Positions 7,180-35,592 of a stretch of DNA of 37,689 nt are shown in pieces; the first letter of the stretch is position 1, and each line of letters starts with the position of its first letter. The notes beneath the pieces are model-generated. The model was not told where the DNA came from and searched no databases. It saw only the letters and a list, made by a program, of their open reading frames with translations. Source of the stretch: Rhodospirillaceae bacterium (GTDB taxonomy: Bacteria; Pseudomonadota; Alphaproteobacteria; Thalassobaculales; Thalassobaculaceae); NCBI GenBank assembly GCA_018699735.1, contig JABIRP010000295.1:1-37689 (forward strand), given 5' to 3'. The position numbers and the translations under genes are program-made.

Positions 7180-10100
7180 CTACTTCTTGCGAGCCCCACC
7201 AGTGGGTTTCTTAGCAGTAGTTTTCTTAGCTGTGGTTTGCTTAGCTGTGGTTTGCTTGGCGGCAGCTTTCTTAGCTGGAGCCTTCGCAGTTGGCGCCTTC
7301 TTGGCCGCTGTCTTTTTCGCGACTGTCTTTTTCGCAACCGTCTGTTTCGCTACTACTTTTTTCACCGCTGCTTTCTGCGCCGCTGCCTTTGATTTGCGCT
7401 CACCGCGTCCAGTTCCGAGTTTTTGGCCGGCATGCAGGGTCAAGGCTTGATCGACGAGCTCTGCCTGCTCTCGTTGATGGCGTGAAAAGCTGCCGGTCGC
7501 CGGTGCTGCTGCTTCCGGCCGACCGGCATAGATCGGTCGCTTGCAGGCACCGTCCAACTCGATCAACACATCTTCCAGGCGCCGATCCAGGAACGACCAG
7601 GATCCCATGTTCCACGGCTCTTCCTGGCACCAGACGACCTCGGCCTGCGGGAACCGCGCTAGCTCTTCCAGCAAGGCCCTACGCGGGAACGGATAGATCT
7701 GTTCCAACCGCAAGAAAAAGACATCCTTGATGCCGCGCTTGGCCCGCTCTTCGTAAAGATCGTAGTAGACCTTGCCGGTACACAGCACGACGCGCTTCAC
7801 ATCCTTGTCGTCGCAGAGTACCTCATTATCGTACATCACCCGATGGAAGGTCGTGCCCTCACCCATCTCCGCCAGGCTCGACACACAGAGTTTGTGACGC
7901 AACAAGGACTTCGGTGTCATGATAATCAGCGGCTTGCGGAATTCGCGGCGCATCTGGCGGCGCAGCACGTGGAAATAACTGCCCGGCGTCGAGCAGTTGA
8001 CGACCTGCATGTTGTCTTCGCCGCAGAGCTGGAGGTAACGCTCAAGACGGGCAGAGGAATGCTCCGGGCCTTGGCCTTCATAACCGTGTGGCAATAGCAT
8101 CACCAAACCCGACATGCGCAACCACTTGTGCTCGCCAGAGCTGATGAATTGGTCGACGATCATCTGGGCACCGTTGGCGAAATCGCCGAACTGCGCCTCC
8201 CACATGATCAACGCGTTCGGCTCGGCTTGACTGAAACCATACTCGAACCCGAGCACCGAGGCCTCCGACAGCGGGCTGTCGATGACCTCGTAGTGTTCCT
8301 GCTTCTCGCGAAGGTTATTCAGCGGTTCATAGCGGCGCTCAGACTCTTGGTCGACCCAGACCGAATGGCGCTGGGAGAACGTGCCCCGACCGCAATCCTG
8401 GCCACTGAGGCGAACCGAATTGCCCTCGGCCAACAACGATCCAAAGGCGAGTGCTTCACCGGTTGACCAGTCAATCCCCTCACCGGTTTCGATCGCCTGG
8501 CGTTTTTGATCCAAAACCCGCTGAAGCTTGCGATTGATCGTTAAGCCCTCTGGAACTTCACAGAGCTTTTGTCCGATCTGGCGCAAATCCTTGATCGGTA
8601 CTGCGGTCGAGCCCCGGCGCTCGTCGCCAAAGGCAGCCTTCATTCCGGACCACTGACCTTCCAGCCAGTCAGCTTTGTTCGGCTTGTAGGCCATGCCGGC
8701 TTCGAACTCTATATTCAAGGTCTCGTTCTGCTCTGAAACCATGCCATCGGCCAGCTCGCGGGTGAGTGTCCCCTCGGCGATGAGCTTCTCGGCATAAACT
8801 TGCCGGGTCGTGGGGTGGCCACCAATTTTCTTGTACATCAGTGGATTGGTGAACATCGGCTCGTCGCCTTCGTTATGCCCGAAGCGGCGATAGCAGATCA
8901 TGTCAAAGACCACGTCGACACCGAATTCCTGGCGGAACTCGATAGCAATGCGAGCTGCGTGCACGACGGCTTCCGGGTCATCGCCGTTCACGTGGAAAAT
9001 TGGCGCCATGACCATCTTGGCGACATCCGTCGGATACGGCGAGGATCGGGAATAATGCGGCGCCGTGGTGAACCCAATCTGGTTGTTGACGATCACATGG
9101 ATCGTGCCGCCGACCTGGTATCCACGCAATTCAGAGAAATCGAAGACTTCCGCCACCACACCTTGGCCAGCAAAGGCGGCGTCGCCATGCAGCAGGATGC
9201 CAAGGACTTTCTTGCGTTCCGGATCATTACGCTGCGCCTGTTTGGCGCGCACCCGGCCAATGACCACCGGGTTGACGATTTCCAAATGCGAGGGATTGGC
9301 GTTCAAAGTCAGATGAACGTTCTTTCCGTCAAACTCCCGGTCCGAGGACACACCCTGGTGGTATTTGACGTCTCCAGAGGTACCGAGGTCTTCTGGGTTT
9401 GCCGGATTGCCAAGAAACTCCGAGATGATCGCGCGGAACGGCTTATCCATGAAATTGTGCAGCACGTTCAGTCGGCCGCGATGCGACATGCCGACGACCA
9501 CTTCCTCTAGACCAAGCTGACTGCCACGCTTGAGGATCTGTTCTAGGGCCGGGATCGCGCTTTCACCGCCGTCGAGACCAAAGCGTTTGGTGCCGACGTA
9601 TTTGACGCCGAGGAATTTTTCAAAACACTCGGCCGCAGTCAGACGTTCAAGGATGGCCTGCTTGCCGCGCGGCGTAAAATCGGTCTGATTGCGGACCCCT
9701 TCAATGCGCTCTTGAATCCAAGCTTTTTGGGCCGGGTCCTGGATGTGCATGAACTCGACACCGATCGTGCCGCAATAGGTCCCCTCCAAAACTTCCATGA
9801 TCTGGGTAAGCGTAGCGGTCTCAAGACCGAGCACCATGTTGATAAAGATCGGTCGATCCCAATCTTCGTCTCCGAACCCGTACTGAGCGGGATCAAGTTC
9901 GGGGTGATAGGTCGGTTCCTGCAATCCCAGTGGATCAAGTTTGGCTTTGAGATGACCGCGGATCCGGTAGGCGCGGATCAACATAATGGCGCGAAGTGAA
10001 TCGAGGGTGGCGGCGCGAACATCGGCGGCCGACAGGTCGCCACGACCCACCTGACCCCGGGCGACGTCCTCGACACCCTCGGCCTCGGCGACCATGTCTT

Positions 10101-10320
10101 CGTCCTGCTGGCCGATAACCCGAGTGCCGCGCGGGGCCCAACTCGGCCCGCGGTTGTCGTTTACAAGGGTCGGCAGATCATCCTGAAGCGCGTCGAAATA
10201 GGCACGCCATTGTTCGTCCACCAGGGCTGGATTTTCCAGGTACCGCTCGTAGAGCTCTGCAATGAACGGCGCATTTGCGCCGGTCAGGAATGTGCCCGTG
10301 TCGTCGAATTGGGTCGCCAT
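7180..10320 (-). CDS. sucA: 2-oxoglutarate dehydrogenase E1 with basic C-terminal tail
   Basis: This thiamine-diphosphate enzyme decarboxylates 2-oxoglutarate and succinylates the lipoyl group of SucB. The start has a strong site (AGGAGGGG) and the usual N-terminal segment FIAELYERYLENP that docks to E2. TPP-binding elements are HGDAAFAGQG and VNNQIGFTT; the C-terminal half has LLPHGYEGQGPEHSSARLER and ends normally with RHQREQAELVDQAL. The protein is 1046 residues. Its last ~79 residues (968-1046) are an extra tail made almost only of Lys, Ala, Thr, Gln and Val in five-residue steps such as AKKTT and AKQTT, like histone H1 tails. It is in frame with the normal domain and precedes a short gap to sucB, so it appears to be real coding sequence. 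The tail's role is unknown. Confidence 0.97.
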   Translation of the reverse strand: MATQFDDTGTFLTGANAPFIAELYERYLENPALVDEQWRAYFDALQDDLPTLVNDNRGPSWAPRGTRVIGQQDEDMVAEAEGVEDVARGQVGRGDLSAADVRAATLDSLRAIMLIRAYRIRGHLKAKLDPLGLQEPTYHPELDPAQYGFGDEDWDRPIFINMVLGLETATLTQIMEVLEGTYCGTIGVEFMHIQDPAQKAWIQERIEGVRNQTDFTPRGKQAILERLTAAECFEKFLGVKYVGTKRFGLDGGESAIPALEQILKRGSQLGLEEVVVGMSHRGRLNVLHNFMDKPFRAIISEFLGNPANPEDLGTSGDVKYHQGVSSDREFDGKNVHLTLNANPSHLEIVNPVVIGRVRAKQAQRNDPERKKVLGILLHGDAAFAGQGVVAEVFDFSELRGYQVGGTIHVIVNNQIGFTTAPHYSRSSPYPTDVAKMVMAPIFHVNGDDPEAVVHAARIAIEFRQEFGVDVVFDMICYRRFGHNEGDEPMFTNPLMYKKIGGHPTTRQVYAEKLIAEGTLTRELADGMVSEQNETLNIEFEAGMAYKPNKADWLEGQWSGMKAAFGDERRGSTAVPIKDLRQIGQKLCEVPEGLTINRKLQRVLDQKRQAIETGEGIDWSTGEALAFGSLLAEGNSVRLSGQDCGRGTFSQRHSVWVDQESERRYEPLNNLREKQEHYEVIDSPLSEASVLGFEYGFSQAEPNALIMWEAQFGDFANGAQMIVDQFISSGEHKWLRMSGLVMLLPHGYEGQGPEHSSARLERYLQLCGEDNMQVVNCSTPGSYFHVLRRQMRREFRKPLIIMTPKSLLRHKLCVSSLAEMGEGTTFHRVMYDNEVLCDDKDVKRVVLCTGKVYYDLYEERAKRGIKDVFFLRLEQIYPFPRRALLEELARFPQAEVVWCQEEPWNMGSWSFLDRRLEDVLIELDGACKRPIYAGRPEAAAPATGSFSRHQREQAELVDQALTLHAGQKLGTGRGERKSKAAAQKAAVKKVVAKQTVAKKTVAKKTAAKKAPTAKAPAKKAAAKQTTAKQTTAKKTTAKKPTGGARKK
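7183..7419 (-). repeat. 15-bp-periodic tract coding the Lys/Ala tail of SucA
   Basis: The DNA coding for SucA residues 968-1046 repeats with a 15-base step, five codons of the AKQTT / AKKTT / AKKTV type. The clearest near-identical copies lie at about 7200-7262. Stepwise growth by slippage or unequal recombination is the likely origin. Because the period is a multiple of three, length changes would keep the frame. Confidence 0.8.
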
Positions 10321-24634: not shown

Positions 24635-25015
24635 TCAGCCCATCGCCATGAAGATCGCCAGCGCCGTCAGCACAGCGGTGGCGACCAGCACCAGGATGCC
24701 GGAGCGCTGTGCCGCGTCGAGGTCATAGCCATACCCTGCATCCCAGAACAGATGTCGGATGCCATTGCACAGATGGAAGAACAGCGCCGCCGCGAAGCCG
24801 ATCATCACCAGAGATCCGAGCCACGAAGTACAGATCGCCACCGCAGTCGCATAGGTCTCCGGGCCGAGCGCCACCGCTAGCAGCCAAAATGCGATCAGCG
24901 CCGCCCCGGCCGTCAGCGCCACGCCAGACATCCGATGGGTAATCGACAGGATCGACGTCATTTGCGGGCGATAGATTTGCAGGTGCGGCGATAGGGGCCG
25001 ATTGGGTGTGCTCAT
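24635..25015 (-). CDS. sdhC: Succinate dehydrogenase cytochrome b556 subunit
   Basis: The frame is open to 25255, but the ATG at 25015, preceded by GAGAGGG, gives the normal 126-residue protein; the longer version adds a non-family leader. The signature RPLSPHLQIYRP and SITHRMSG (residues 7-31) and the heme histidine in HLCNGIRHLFWDAG (His81) are plain, with three membrane helices near 30-50, 63-85 and 104-125. It anchors the complex and helps bind quinone. It is the first gene of sdhCDAB; its leader of more than 200 bp leads back to an AT-rich region with DnaA boxes. Confidence 0.95.
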   Translation of the reverse strand: MSTPNRPLSPHLQIYRPQMTSILSITHRMSGVALTAGAALIAFWLLAVALGPETYATAVAICTSWLGSLVMIGFAAALFFHLCNGIRHLFWDAGYGYDLDAAQRSGILVLVATAVLTALAIFMAMG

Positions 25016-25400
25016 GCCTGTTGCCCTCTCGTTCGGATTGGCTGACGCTCGACGCGCTCTCGACGAACTCACAACGTGTTCTTGTGGCGCGAATCTTAAT
25101 GCGAAATTCGTCTCCTGGCAAAGAGCCGCACCCGCCCCGGCCAGCCGACTCCTTATAAACCCGCGCTGATGCGAATGAAAAGCGATATCGCCCGCGCGGC
25201 TCACGAGACCAAAAGTCAAAATCGAGCGAGCATACTGCAAACAAACATACCTCAACTTACCGACGAAGATGTTGATATCGAAATAAAAATATCCTATTCT
25301 CTTTAGATTGAATTGTGGATATGTCTGTGGATAAACTGTTAATTAAATAGAATAAAAATAAAACTGACACTTTCCTAATTTTTTTATTGACGATTTCTGC
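25016..25400. promoter_or_regulatory. sdh leader and AT-rich divergent control region
   Basis: No convincing gene lies here. The part next to sdhC (25016-25255) is GC-rich leader, and 25256-25400 is sharply AT-rich, including a run of A/T from about 25335 to 25390, unlike the rest of the window. It probably carries the sdh promoter on the minus strand and a promoter for the structured region on the plus strand. TTGACG at 25387-25392 could be a -35 box, but no good -10 follows at the usual distance. Confidence 0.55.
25314..25334 (-). promoter_or_regulatory. Two tandem DnaA boxes
   Basis: Read on the minus strand, 25326-25334 is TTATCCACA, a perfect consensus DnaA box, and 25314-25322 is ATATCCACA, one mismatch away. 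They face the same way and start 12 bp apart, close to one helical turn. They border an AT-rich tract that could melt. DnaA would bind here either to control sdh or the neighbouring RNA, or as part of an origin. Confidence 0.65.
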
Positions 25401-25405
25401 GTTTT

Positions 25406-25885
25406 GTCTGACAGTTACTTCAGACGCGTGGGATCGTCGTAGCCCCGCTGAACATGGAAAGCTGATCAGCCCCTTCCCGGAATGAGAGGTTTTCCCGAGC
25501 TCCTTGGAGCAGGTTTCGGTGGAGTTGGTCAACGCATCATGCTGTTCCGCTTCGGTCTCCGGTGGCGGGCAGTGCGTGGACCTCGCGAACTCGCGGAGTG
25601 GATTGTCGCGACATCGGCTTCGGCCGGCGGCGCGACAGGGTTCGAAGCCCAGGTGTCAAAACCCAGGTTTCGAACGCGGAGCGCGCCGATTGGCCAAGGT
25701 GGGCGCGCCACTGGATCCACAAAGCGGTTTGCGTCAGAGGGTCACGCGGTGCGAACGACCGTTTGGTGTCGAAGGTAAACCGGCGGAGTCCGTGCCAAGA
25801 CAGTCGCTTTGGTGAATGTCGGCACTTACGAAGATTAAGCGCGTCGGATGGGCCTCCCGGGCAACCGGGAGGCCCCTCTCGTTTT
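25406..25885 (+). ncRNA. Candidate large structured RNA (unknown family)
   Basis: A chain of perfect inverted repeats fills this stretch. They are GTCTGA/TCAGAC (25406-25425), GCTCC/GGAGC (25499-25510), ACGCA/TGCGT (25532-25577) enclosing CCGC/GCGG and CGG/CCG, GTCGCG/CGCGAC (25605-25636) enclosing CGGC-TTCG-GCCG, GTTCGAAGCC/GGTTTCGAAC (25640-25675, one G-U), and GCGCGCC/GGCGCGC (25681-25708). CGGTTT/AAACCG (25725-25782) follows, enclosing smaller hairpins, then GTGCC-AA-GACA/TGTC-GGCAC (25792-25825), and last a strong terminator. A stable UUCG loop and nested stems suggest a folded transcript on the plus strand. Consensus parts of RNase P RNA, tmRNA and SRP RNA were looked for by eye and not seen. 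Frames of about 100 codons cross it but look like no known protein. Covariation evidence is lacking. Confidence 0.45.
25850..25885 (+). terminator. Strong Rho-independent terminator
   Basis: GGGCCTCCCGG (25850-25860) and CCGGGAGGCCC (25865-25875) pair perfectly over 11 bases around a GCAA tetraloop, followed by CTCTCGTTTT. It reads rightward, yet no recognised plus-strand gene lies upstream, which supports a plus-strand transcript from the structured region. Confidence 0.85.
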
Positions 25886-25904
25886 GGTGTCGGCAATCCC
25901 AATA

Positions 25905-26010
25905 TTCGTCATCCTGAGGCGCCCGACCACCGGGAGGGCCTCGAAGGACGCACACCGCCACAATGTTGCGTCCTTCGAGGCTCGCTCTGCTCGCACCTCA
26001 GGATGACGAA
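25905..26010. repeat. Nested palindromic repeat (CGTCATCCTGAGG family)
   Basis: Outer arms TTCGTCATCCTGAGG (25905-25919) and CCTCAGGATGACGAA (25996-26010) are perfect over 15 bases; inner arms CCTCGAAGGACGCA (25939-25952) and its complement (25967-25980) are perfect over 14. This layout is a known dispersed repeat type in alphaproteobacterial genomes. It lies just downstream of the CitE-like gene and may end its transcript. Confidence 0.85.
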
Positions 26011-26039: not shown

Positions 26040-26918
26040 TCACCCCACCTGCATGCGCTCTATCAGTTCGGCCATTGCAACCAAGCGCTGGGCCTCGGCA
26101 ACATGTAGGGCCTCGACCAGTTTACCATCGACCAACAACACGCCCTTTCCCGCCTCAGCCGCCTCGCCATGGGCGATAATGATGCGTCGGGACCAATCCA
26201 ACTCCGCCTCATCCGGCGCGAAAACACGGTTGGCGGCCTCGATAGTCTTCGGGTGGATGAGCGTCTTTCCATCGAAACCAAAATCCAAACCCTGCCGGCA
26301 TGAGGCCTCAAACCCGGCATCGTCGGCAAGGTCGAGAAACACGCCGTCGAGGATCGCTAACCCGTAGGCCCGCGCCGCCAGCATGCACAGGCCAATGCTG
26401 GTGACAAATGGTAGGCGATCCGACGTATGCCGAGCGTGTAGATCCTTCGCCAGGTCTGACGTCCCCATGACCAGACATCCGACACGTGGGCTCGCCGATG
26501 CGATCGCCTCGGCCCGTAGCATTGCGAGCGGCGTTTCCATCATGCACCAAATGGCGAGGCTTTCCGGCGCCCCCGCCGCAACCAGCGCCGCTTCTGCCCG
26601 TTGGACCGTCTCTGCATTCTCAACTTTGGCCAAGAGCAAGGCATCCGCACCCGAGGTGGCGGCAAAGACCAAGTCTGCGTCTCCCCATTCGGTCTCAAGC
26701 GCATTCGTGCGAACCACCAGTTCGCGCTCGCCGTAGCCGCCATAAGAAATTGCATCGCCAATCAAATCCCGAGCCGTCTGCTTCGCCTCGGGGGCCACCG
26801 CATCTTCCAGATCCATGATGATCACGTCAGCCGGAAGCCCTCGGCCCTTCTCCAGCGCACGCGGGTTAGAGCCTGGCATGTAAAGCACCGAGCGGCGCGG
26901 TCGGTGAGAGGCGGTCAT
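26040..26918 (-). CDS. HpcH/HpaI aldolase / CitE-like CoA lyase
   Basis: The ATG at 26918, preceded by AGGAG, gives 292 residues; the frame open to 27077 would add a stretch without family features. It has the CitE/malyl-CoA lyase pattern: RSVLYMPGSNPRALEKG (9-25), IIMDLEDAV (33-41), Arg70 in VVRTN, LAKVENAE (97-103), the metal ligand Glu128 in CMMETPLA and Asp155 in GTSDLAKDL. Such enzymes split or join CoA esters of hydroxy-acids (malyl-, methylmalyl-, citramalyl-CoA). No citrate lyase subunits are nearby, so a free-standing beta-hydroxyacyl-CoA lyase is likely. It is divergent from pdxY across a TetR-type operator pair. Confidence 0.88.
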   Translation of the reverse strand: MTASHRPRRSVLYMPGSNPRALEKGRGLPADVIIMDLEDAVAPEAKQTARDLIGDAISYGGYGERELVVRTNALETEWGDADLVFAATSGADALLLAKVENAETVQRAEAALVAAGAPESLAIWCMMETPLAMLRAEAIASASPRVGCLVMGTSDLAKDLHARHTSDRLPFVTSIGLCMLAARAYGLAILDGVFLDLADDAGFEASCRQGLDFGFDGKTLIHPKTIEAANRVFAPDEAELDWSRRIIIAHGEAAEAGKGVLLVDGKLVEALHVAEAQRLVAMAELIERMQVG

Positions 26919-26956
26919 GGAGGTCTCCTCTTTTTGGTTCGAGCGCACTCTATCGA

Positions 26957-31980: not shown

Positions 31981-32172
31981 CGCGCGCTTAGTCCGTGTCG
32001 GCGAGCAGTCAATCAAAGTATTATTATTGATATTTATTTTAATTGAATTTCTCTAAAATTATATCTATTGTACCTATGTCTGAATGAAGCCGGCCGTTCG
32101 AGTTTGGCCGATATACAGCGTGTCTTGCCTGGGGAGGCACGCAAGAAACTAAATCCCGTTAAGGGGCTCAGG
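31981..32172 (+). promoter_or_regulatory. AT-rich promoter and leader of the RTX gene
   Basis: The 192-bp gap after the metallohydrolase contains an A/T-rich tract at about 32015-32075, the second such region of the window, a likely promoter or site for a silencing protein. Next to the RTX start, CCC-GTTAA-GGGG overlaps the ribosome binding site AAGGGG, so a small hairpin could hide it. A second hairpin (GCC-TGGGGA-GGC) lies just upstream. Confidence 0.45.
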
Positions 32173-35100
32173 ATGACTGTAACGAGCGTGCCCAGCGCAT
32201 CAGGCGAGATCGTCAATAGCGACAGCGCCAACGATCGCCTCGAAGGCCCGGCCACCAACGACCTTTTCATATACGAACCCGGGGACGGCAACGACACGAT
32301 CGTTGATCTCGGCGGCGACGACACGCTGCAGATTGATGGTGGTCTCTCTATCGCTGGCCTATCGCGCTCTGGTGACGACTATATCCTCGAACTCAACGAC
32401 GGCGCGATCCTAACGGTCGAAGGGCAAGCCTTGGCGCAGGTGGTCGAAACCGTCTCAATTTCCGGCGGCTGGAGCGGCTCATTCCAATCCGGCTCCAACG
32501 TCGGCGGCACGGACGATCTGGCACTGCATACCGGCACAACCGACGCCGACATATTGTCCGCCGGCTCCGGCAACGACATGGTCTTCGTCACGCGCGGCGG
32601 GGTCAATGCTGGCACCGGGAGCGATACCATTCGCGGTGGCAACGACGGCATTTTCATAGACGGCGGGTCGCAAAACGATCTCATTTTCGGTGGTGACGGC
32701 AACAATACACTTAGCGGTGGAACCGGCGACGACACCATCCAGGGCGGCAGCGGCGCGGATCTGATCGATGGCGGCTGGCACAATGACGTCCTGGCCGGGG
32801 CCGGTGGCGACGACACGATCTCCGGTGACTTCGGTGATGACGCATTGTCCGGTGGCGACGGCAACGACCTGCTCGCCGATGGCAGCGGCAACGATACGCT
32901 TCTCGGTGAGGCTGGGAACGACACTTTGATCTCAAGCCTCGGCGACGACCTAATTCGTGGTGGCGATGGCAATGATTCTATTTCCTATTCTCACGGCAAC
33001 GACACCGTCGATGGCGGTGGCGGCCTGGACATATTGGAGATCAAGGGCCTGTCCCAGGGCGTCTCTATTGATCTGTCGAGCGGCGACGACACCATCACAG
33101 TCAAGACCGGCAGCTCGGTCGCCTATAGCAATATCGAGGGCATCGTTTCCGGTATTTTCTCCGATACTCTGATCGGCGACGCCGGTGCTAACTATCTTGA
33201 TGGCGGTGCCGGCGCGAACACGCTCTCGGGCGCTGGCGGCGACGACACATTGCGCGGTTTCAACTCCTCCGACCGGTATATCTACCGGATCGGCGACGGC
33301 AACGACCGGATCGAGGAGGCCGCATGGACCCAAAGAAGCAACACGCTCGACCTCGGCGACGGAACCTTCCAGCGCATGAGCGGCGCCACCCGTGATGGCT
33401 CGGACCTATTACTGACCTTCGATGACGGTGGAACCGTTCGCCTTGTCGATCAGTTCGCGGGCAAGGGCGTCGGCACCATCCAGTTTACCAGCGGCGGCCG
33501 GACCATCGGCCAAGAGATCACCCATTCCGCAACGCCCGATGGCTCTACCCAATTTGAGGTCGGAACGTCGGGCGCTGACACTATTACTGGCGAGGCGATT
33601 GACGACACCATCTGGGGCAATGCCGGCGACGATTCCCTGCATGGCAACAGAGGGGACGATAGCCTTCTTGGTGGTGCCGGAAACGACACACTGGAAGCCT
33701 ACCTTGGTGACGAAACGCTGGACGGCGGCACCGGCAACGATGTCTTCAAGCTGGCCAGTTTCGAGCGTATCGAGACCACCGTAATCCGCGAGGCGGGCGG
33801 GACCGACGAACTGCGCCTGGACGCCATCAACAAAAACGACATCGGATCCGTCACTCGATCCGGCGACAATCTGAACATCAACTTCAATCAAGGCGGCCAC
33901 GCGGCGATAGAGAACTACTTCATCGGAACCAACAACCAGGTCGAAATTGTCGACTTCAACCGAGGTATCGATCGGCACACGTTGGCGGTCGCGGATGGGT
34001 TCACGTCCGGCACACTGATTGATGTCCTTGGTGTTTCGACAGTCGCGGGCACCAGCGGTCGCGACCTATTGGCCGGCACCGAATTCAACGAGTTGCTGGT
34101 TGGTGGTGCGGATGACGATACCCTCTCAGCCTCCGCCGGTCGCGACACGCTCGACGGCGGTGCCGGTTCGGACCTTTTCGTGGGGCGGGCTCAGGAGTTT
34201 GCCTATGGCACGATCTCCGGGTTTTCCGCTGGTGACACGATCCGTCTGACAGACACCGAACTCACCCAGGCCGGTTTGACGACCAGCGCGCTCAATGGTG
34301 GACGGACGCTGGTCAATCTCGATACCGACGGCGACGGCTTCACCGATGTTTACATGGCCCTCGAAGGCGATTTCGTCGACCAATTGGCTATTACGGGCTC
34401 TGGCGGAACCAGCGCGATTACCGTACGGCCGATCACCGAGACCGTGGTTCCAACCAACAGCGGCGGCGGAAGTTCCGGCGGTGGTGGTGGTGGTGGTGGC
34501 GGCGGAAGTTCCGGGAGCAGCGGTGGCGGTAGCGGTGGCGGAGGTGGCGGCGGGGGCGGTGGAGGAGGGGGTGGCTCGTCGGGTTCGAGCACGGTAACGA
34601 CCGCGCCCACTCCGACACCAACCCCGGACCCCGGTCCGGTGATCCATTTCTCTGCGGCGACCCGGGCCACTCCGGGCCGGATCATCGAGGTTGTGTCGCC
34701 AGACGCCACCGGCGCGCCGGCGACGGCAATCGGCGCTGCAGGTGTGGTCGACGAAGTGCATGCGACGGTCTCGGTTCAGCTAGACGGCAATGCCGACAAT
34801 CTGGTTTTGGCCGGCGCGGCGAATATCTCTGGATTTGGCAACGGATTGTCTAATCACATGACCGGCAATGCCGGCAACAATCATGTCGCCGGCGGCGATG
34901 GCGGCGACACAATCGACGCCGGCGAGGGCGATGACGTGCTACTCGGCGAGACCGGCGAAGACTTTATCTATGCCGGCAATGGCGCCGATCAGGTCTTCGG
35001 CGGGCAGGGTGACGACCAGTTGTTTGGTGGTTACGGAGCCGACGTGATTGGTGGCGGCAGCGGCGCCGATATCGTCTTTGGCAATCACAACTCCGACAAT

Positions 35101-35592
35101 ATCAACGGCGGCGCCGATGCCGATACAATCTACGGCGGCCAGAATGACGGTGTACCAAGGCTCGATGCTTACGGCTTCCTTAGAATGCAGGACGGCGTGG
35201 AGACCATCGACGGGGGTGCCGGCAACGACTCGATGTTCGGCAACTACGGCGACGAAACCATGCTGGGCGGTGCTGGTGACGACACCATGTATGGCGGCCA
35301 GAACAACGATACGCTGGTTGGCGGGGACGGCGCCGACCGGCTCTACGGGAACCGCGACGACGACATTTTGATTGGCGGTGCCGGTGGGGACACATTTGCC
35401 TTTGGCGCTGCCGGGCAAGGGAGCGACGTGGTGATGGATTTCGACTTCACCGCCGGTGATCGCCTGTCACTGGTCGGCACGTGGCAGGTCTCAACTGCGG
35501 CATCGGGCAACGCACTCATAATCCACTCGGGCGGCACATTCGAGATGGTGGGCTACCAGGCAAGCGAGGTTGTCGACGGTTGGTTCGTCTGA
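32173..35592 (+). CDS. Large secreted RTX calcium-binding repeat protein
   Basis: I choose the ATG at 32173 (AAGGGG six bases before) over the frame opening at a TTG at 32068; the product is 1139 residues. It is built from Gly/Asp-rich nonapeptides of the GGxGxDxLx kind in three main blocks: about 120-265, 460-530 and 850-1080. These bind Ca2+ and fold outside the cell. Between them lie related domains (for example YIYRIGDGNDRIEE then GDGTFQRM). A Gly/Ser linker at 763-805 and a Thr/Pro stretch split the protein in two. The C-terminal end (GSDVVMDFDFTAGDRLSL, then VVDGWFV) is the type of signal used by type I secretion. No enzyme domain and no transporter genes are visible. Role could be surface layer, adhesin or matrix. 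Confidence 0.9.
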   Translation: MTVTSVPSASGEIVNSDSANDRLEGPATNDLFIYEPGDGNDTIVDLGGDDTLQIDGGLSIAGLSRSGDDYILELNDGAILTVEGQALAQVVETVSISGGWSGSFQSGSNVGGTDDLALHTGTTDADILSAGSGNDMVFVTRGGVNAGTGSDTIRGGNDGIFIDGGSQNDLIFGGDGNNTLSGGTGDDTIQGGSGADLIDGGWHNDVLAGAGGDDTISGDFGDDALSGGDGNDLLADGSGNDTLLGEAGNDTLISSLGDDLIRGGDGNDSISYSHGNDTVDGGGGLDILEIKGLSQGVSIDLSSGDDTITVKTGSSVAYSNIEGIVSGIFSDTLIGDAGANYLDGGAGANTLSGAGGDDTLRGFNSSDRYIYRIGDGNDRIEEAAWTQRSNTLDLGDGTFQRMSGATRDGSDLLLTFDDGGTVRLVDQFAGKGVGTIQFTSGGRTIGQEITHSATPDGSTQFEVGTSGADTITGEAIDDTIWGNAGDDSLHGNRGDDSLLGGAGNDTLEAYLGDETLDGGTGNDVFKLASFERIETTVIREAGGTDELRLDAINKNDIGSVTRSGDNLNINFNQGGHAAIENYFIGTNNQVEIVDFNRGIDRHTLAVADGFTSGTLIDVLGVSTVAGTSGRDLLAGTEFNELLVGGADDDTLSASAGRDTLDGGAGSDLFVGRAQEFAYGTISGFSAGDTIRLTDTELTQAGLTTSALNGGRTLVNLDTDGDGFTDVYMALEGDFVDQLAITGSGGTSAITVRPITETVVPTNSGGGSSGGGGGGGGGGSSGSSGGGSGGGGGGGGGGGGGGSSGSSTVTTAPTPTPTPDPGPVIHFSAATRATPGRIIEVVSPDATGAPATAIGAAGVVDEVHATVSVQLDGNADNLVLAGAANISGFGNGLSNHMTGNAGNNHVAGGDGGDTIDAGEGDDVLLGETGEDFIYAGNGADQVFGGQGDDQLFGGYGADVIGGGSGADIVFGNHNSDNINGGADADTIYGGQNDGVPRLDAYGFLRMQDGVETIDGGAGNDSMFGNYGDETMLGGAGDDTMYGGQNNDTLVGGDGADRLYGNRDDDILIGGAGGDTFAFGAAGQGSDVVMDFDFTAGDRLSLVGTWQVSTAASGNALIIHSGGTFEMVGYQASEVVDGWFV
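34460..34587 (+). repeat. Poly-Gly/Ser linker coding tract in the RTX gene
   Basis: GGT/GGC codons repeat almost without break, interrupted by short TCC/AGC serines, coding residues 763-805. The run is made of simple GGN repeats and is likely to vary in length between strains. It joins the first two RTX blocks to a C-terminal region that has its own strand-rich domain and RTX block. Confidence 0.85.

Follow-up and report, generated by a model that had tools for sequence, protein, structure and literature searches.

A pair of DnaA boxes beside AT-rich DNA was found in a genome of the family Thalassobaculaceae, and the question raised by this locus is whether it is a chromosomal replication origin or a promoter under DnaA control and, in the latter case, which gene the promoter would serve. 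The window analysed here (37,689 nucleotides) is the entire contig C191 of a genome assembled in 431 contigs. The initial annotation had proposed either a possible oriC or a DnaA-regulated promoter of sdh or of an RNA. Judged from sequence comparison, the box pair is most likely a DnaA-box-controlled promoter of a new non-coding RNA (ncRNA) family, of which two forms, R1 and R2, are described below.

Box pair and gene setting

The boxes are placed between two minus-strand genes, sdhC (24635–25015; above the TIGR02970 cut-off), which leads sdhCDAB, and a citE-like lyase gene (26040–26921; citE-related, below the equivalog cut-off). A perfect DnaA box, TTATCCACA (25326–25334, minus strand, 0 mismatches), and a copy with one mismatch, ATATCCACA (25314–25322, minus strand), were both present as initially annotated, in the same direction and 12 bp apart from start to start. 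The tract surrounding them (25262–25390) is 75% A+T, and no other 120-bp stretch of the window is as AT-rich as the one beginning at 25269 (77.5% A+T, compared to a window mean of 41%), giving the combination of DnaA boxes and AT-rich stretch known from alphaproteobacterial oriC. The roughly 60 bp described as nearly pure A/T are AT-rich, but their purity was overstated, with 82% A+T over 25335–25390 and 73% over 25262–25313 on the opposite side of the boxes.

Box variants were counted against background as the annotation had proposed. Sites with at most one mismatch to the DnaA box numbered 8 in the window, where 4.1 were expected, and 8 or more were reached in 4 of 100 shuffles, so that lone sites show no more than a slight enrichment. 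The tandem pair is present a single time, and 0 of 60 composition-preserving block shuffles contained such a pair. Chance matches in AT-rich DNA would agree with single near-matches at only twice expectation and with a genome-wide number of perfect boxes not above the reversed control, but the result for the pair and the enrichment of boxes across species at the RNA loci make this explanation extremely improbable.

Elsewhere in the window, a 2-oxoglutarate dehydrogenase E1 gene (7180–10320, minus strand) was seen whose residues 978–1039 are weakly similar, below cut-off, to histone H1-like HC2, as well as a gene (32068–35592, plus strand) for a 1174-aa protein with 15 stretches of RTX calcium-binding repeats.

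Position relative to the replication origin

According to PMC1914354, the origins of Caulobacter and Rickettsia are flanked by the hemE-COG1806 pair, and the Caulobacter-type origin shares with the present site DnaA boxes by AT-rich DNA in an intergenic position. The site described here differs in having the wrong neighbours (sdhC and the citE-like gene), in lying off the skew minimum of a complete relative (G015), in having no parS nearby and in having an RNA gene attached. The absence of hemE from the window, noted in the initial annotation, was explained by its location on contig C403 (18021–19040), where it is adjoined by a divergent Kinase-PPPase (COG1806) gene. Three parS-like sites were found at 26.4–29.9 kb of C403, the only contig of the genome carrying parS. 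Upstream of hemE, single near-boxes were seen in this and related genomes. The only Bac_DnaA match of the genome (L001, G000:C67:4170-4253) covers 28 positions at a contig end, and dnaA was therefore probably cut by the assembly.

No GC-skew switch was seen at 25.3 kb of the window, and the skew minimum was judged in the relatives G015 and G027, the genome itself being in 431 pieces. In G015, the cumulative skew over 2.10–2.58 Mb is lowest at 2.37 Mb, with hemE at 2,372,532 and the box beside sdhC at 2,498,777, i.e. 126 kb from the minimum. Skew is positive in all 13 10-kb windows from 2.37 to 2.50 Mb, and coarse sampling with 20-kb windows gave negative values in 8/8 from 0.24 to 1.94 Mb and positive values in 6/7 from 2.64 Mb on. 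G027, with a broad minimum around 1.10 Mb, hemE at 1.06 Mb and sdhC at 0.947 Mb, is noisier than G015, yet points the same way.

The skew check that had been suggested thus placed the minimum away from the boxes in these relatives, and oriC, tested with hemE, parS, dnaA and GC skew, was rejected. The tandem arrangement including a perfect box, the location in the 120 bp of highest A+T content, the retention of the array in relatives and a distance of 111–128 kb between sdhC and hemE in the five relatives with both genes on one contig (G015, G016, G018, G027 and G028) would suit an origin; with hemE, Kinase-PPPase and parS together on C403 and the G015 minimum at hemE, we consider it very unlikely that the box site is one.

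Predicted RNA gene and promoters

The boxes and the AT-rich tract would instead act as the control region upstream of an ncRNA gene on the plus strand, transcribed away from sdhC. This predicted structured RNA of about 460 nt (25422–25881, plus strand; the ends are approximate) is supported by its fold and by conserved structure in relatives, where the perfect box is likewise found 5′ of the RNA. Its folding z-score is −7.2, and 0 of 100 shuffles folded equally well. A −35-like hexamer, TTGACG, preceded by a T run (25387–25392, plus strand) belongs to a TTTTT-TTG block aligned across relatives, and a putative −10-like hexamer, GACAGT (25410–25415, plus strand; GATAGT in Nisaea), follows after a 17-bp spacer. 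The predicted RNA promoter is weak and was not listed by a consensus promoter scan of the window. The gene would end at an intrinsic terminator-like hairpin with an 11-bp stem and a T-rich tail (25850–25881, plus strand). The citE-like gene lies on the far side of the RNA from the boxes. Directly past the terminator, a long imperfect inverted repeat, CGTCATCCTGAGG ... CCTCAGGATGACG (25908–26008), was noticed by eye.

A protein-coding explanation of the region was rejected: the five ORFs inside it gave 0 Pfam matches, and the similarity to relatives, found in several frames, is mostly restricted to an RNA motif. For the divergent sdhC, a separate promoter is probable, with a −10 (TATAAG, 25152–25157, minus strand) aligned in several relatives and located about 160 bp from the boxes.

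Conservation within the family

An alignment of the region upstream of sdhC, made from 15 loci selected for having boxes, showed the T-run and TTG block reading away from sdhC. Searching 36 family genomes with window positions 25400–25890 recovered a short near-invariant stretch at the matching place, 26 letters of which differ by 0–1 in 12 loci beside sdhC; in the window, the invariant motif of the RNA, GGCGGAGTCCGTGCCAAGACAGTCGC (25782–25807, plus strand), forms the R1 hairpin. A model of R1 built from 14 sequences matched 15/36 Thalassobaculaceae genomes (E≤0.1) and 3/385 Alphaproteobacteria genomes, every one of them Thalassobaculaceae. The 5′ and 3′ ends of the R1 RNAs pair with each other. 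RNAalifold found two-sided changes at 30 of 113 predicted pairs in six forms of 360–375 nt and at 11 of 48 in five forms of 130 nt from Nisaea, a genus of the same family, with certain predicted pairs broken in certain sequences. In Nisaea denitrificans DSM 18348 and N. nitritireducens DSM 19540, the predicted RNA including its terminator would measure about 180 nt. The RNA is adjoined by sdhCDAB in 12 of the 15 R1 genomes.

A second copy of the 3′ part of the R1 RNA (L269, G018:C15:20512-20595) has no DnaA boxes and is flanked by short genes that by eye resemble those of phages. Two AT-rich reduced relatives (G022 and G023), each a single contig of 1.5 Mb, have neither the R1 RNA nor the boxes; their sdhC is near mid-contig, distant from hemE, and they bear the same genus label as 5-Mb genomes carrying the RNA.

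Conservation across the class

Four further sdhC loci (L034, L040, L085 and L094) have boxes, the promoter block and a different RNA, whose 3′ end forms a covarying three-way junction. The R2 model built from these four matched 32/385 Alphaproteobacteria genomes at E≤0.01, 12 of them at E≤1e-6, spanning at least 16 families among the matches listed, and 7 of 80 sdhC loci (minus-strand rows). When 34 matches (31 distinct) were aligned to the model, two-sided changes appeared at 24/29 pairs, with 96% of cells paired, and 0 of 500 shuffles scored as high; this alignment was fitted to the structure model and leans towards structure, and the unfitted alignment of four sequences gave 8/29. Both the R1 and the R2 alignments contain the covarying secondary structure of a structured ncRNA family.

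Among the 20 R2 loci with long flanks, sdhC is upstream of the RNA in 12 and absent in eight. A citE-like gene adjoins R2 RNAs too, following the RNA in L343, L349 and others. The two forms thus share their place (sdhC, boxes, promoter, RNA) and their general architecture. The R1 model gave no match on R2-type loci and the R2 model reached only 11.6 bits on the window; aligning the RNAs of the two forms by sequence gave no detectable match and was abandoned. We infer that they are orthologous from the common place and architecture, without detectable common sequence.

The distribution of R2 also bears on the origin: parS and the RNA are on different contigs in 16 of the 18 R2 genomes having parS, which argues further against the box site being an origin, and a fixed distance from the origin is therefore no part of the class-wide design.

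Comparison with known RNAs

With Rfam 15, no family reached its gathering score in the whole window or in the R1 and R2 loci scanned, the latter two being searched with E-value thresholds. The best match was DUF3800-VI (RF02915; 31.5 compared to a gathering score of 35), and BjrC68 (RF02353) scored 22.1 against 39; both are weakly similar to the 3′ hairpins of these RNAs only. 6S RNA (RF00013) was rejected, as it is located elsewhere in all four genomes tested (on C334 in the genome studied here), and tmRNA and RNase P gave no gathering-score match in the Rfam scans limited to these stretches. In a search for carriage by phages, the R1 motif had 0 matches, and the single contig found with the R2 stem pattern was discarded, as it lacks a box array and matched at E 0.13 only. 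Among the papers listed by searches of the open literature, none described this RNA.

Association of the boxes with the RNA

Boxes with at most one mismatch were counted around R2 in the 20 loci with long flanks, which represent 20 of the 32 genomes. On the upstream side, 42 boxes were present within 1.3 kb of the element in 18/20 loci (13 perfect), and on the downstream side five boxes in 5/20 loci (0 perfect); shuffles gave a mean of 2.8 and a maximum of 7. Inverted boxes 39–41 bp apart are present in 10/20 loci and in 0 of 200 shuffles, and tandem boxes 11–12 bp apart in 8/20. The two loci without boxes are L339 and L354. In R1, 14/15 loci have boxes, the exception being the second copy in G018; outside these 15, the R1 RNA locus of G012 has no box. 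The distance from the boxes to the RNA promoter ranges from about 50 bp in the window to about 100 bp in R2 loci, so that conserved boxes stand upstream of a promoter, as in DnaA-regulated promoters.

Control of sdhCDAB by the boxes, through which DnaA would couple the TCA cycle or respiration with replication, was weighed in the same data. The boxes are 300 bp upstream of sdhC in the window, and sdhCDAB is the neighbour in 12/20 R2 loci and 12/15 R1 genomes. When 110 sdhC loci were compared for boxes, a box within 700 bp was found in 19 of the 21 carrying the RNA (perfect in 16) and in 4 of the 89 without it (0 perfect); two of the 21 repeat Nisaea genomes already counted, and sequences from relatives cannot be taken as independent. 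Boxes are also retained at RNA loci lacking sdhC: 7/8 such R2 loci keep them, two at an atypical distance (L350 and L352), and a tandem pair is kept in G008 and G011, where recX-like genes and not sdhC adjoin the RNA. Together with the distance of about 160 bp between the boxes and the likely sdh promoter, this leaves control of sdhCDAB unlikely, and an sdh-only promoter was rejected, joint control of both genes being conceivable. The boxes follow the RNA and not sdhC, and of the two promoters initially considered the comparison supports that of the RNA; the conservation of the boxes in relatives, also put forward as a check, was borne out upstream of the RNA.

The array could alternatively be mainly a site of DnaA titration or reactivation (datA/DARS-like), with the RNA as a by-product. 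A conserved multi-box geometry including inverted boxes 39–41 bp apart would fit such a site, but the array goes together with a promoter and an RNA of conserved structure, and its distance from the origin varies across the class; we give this explanation about the same low probability as sdh control.

Discussion

Comparison of sequences supports the box sites, the structure of the RNA and their genomic association. For the promoter of the RNA, we infer DnaA occupancy, transcription and the sign of regulation: the tandem boxes, 50–100 bp upstream of the promoter, would be bound by DnaA, probably as DnaA-ATP, which would switch transcription or set its timing, and production of the RNA would thereby keep step with replication initiation. 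The location of the boxes upstream of the promoter suggests activation, with repression possible. The paired ends and the invariant loop suggest that the RNA may be trans-acting or protein-binding.

DnaA-regulated promoters with DnaA boxes upstream are known from nrdAB of Escherichia coli and gcrA of Caulobacter, and the present locus shares this arrangement, with a predicted structured RNA as its putative target. OLE, GOLLD and ROOL are large structured bacterial ncRNAs of several hundred nt with conserved structure and unknown role. The RNA described here resembles them in size, conserved structure and lack of a recognised coding frame, and differs in its upstream DnaA-box array and in matching no Rfam family over the stretches scanned. 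CcnA of Caulobacter, according to PMC8959179, is an ncRNA at the origin that is presumably activated by CtrA; it is a replication-linked alphaproteobacterial ncRNA, as the RNA described here would also be, whereas the latter is off-origin and has DnaA boxes.

We tentatively propose, at somewhat less than even confidence, that an undescribed large structured RNA of the Alphaproteobacteria (at least 16 families), controlled by DnaA through a conserved array (tandem boxes at 11–12 bp and an inverted box 40 bp away), may be a cell-cycle RNA coupling initiation to metabolism or feeding back on DnaA. DnaA-box pairs by AT-rich DNA can mark such promoters instead of oriC and should be read with caution. 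If true, the finding would mean that a major bacterial class has one more widespread RNA family, and would provide a defined case of DnaA, the replication initiator, controlling an ncRNA away from the origin.
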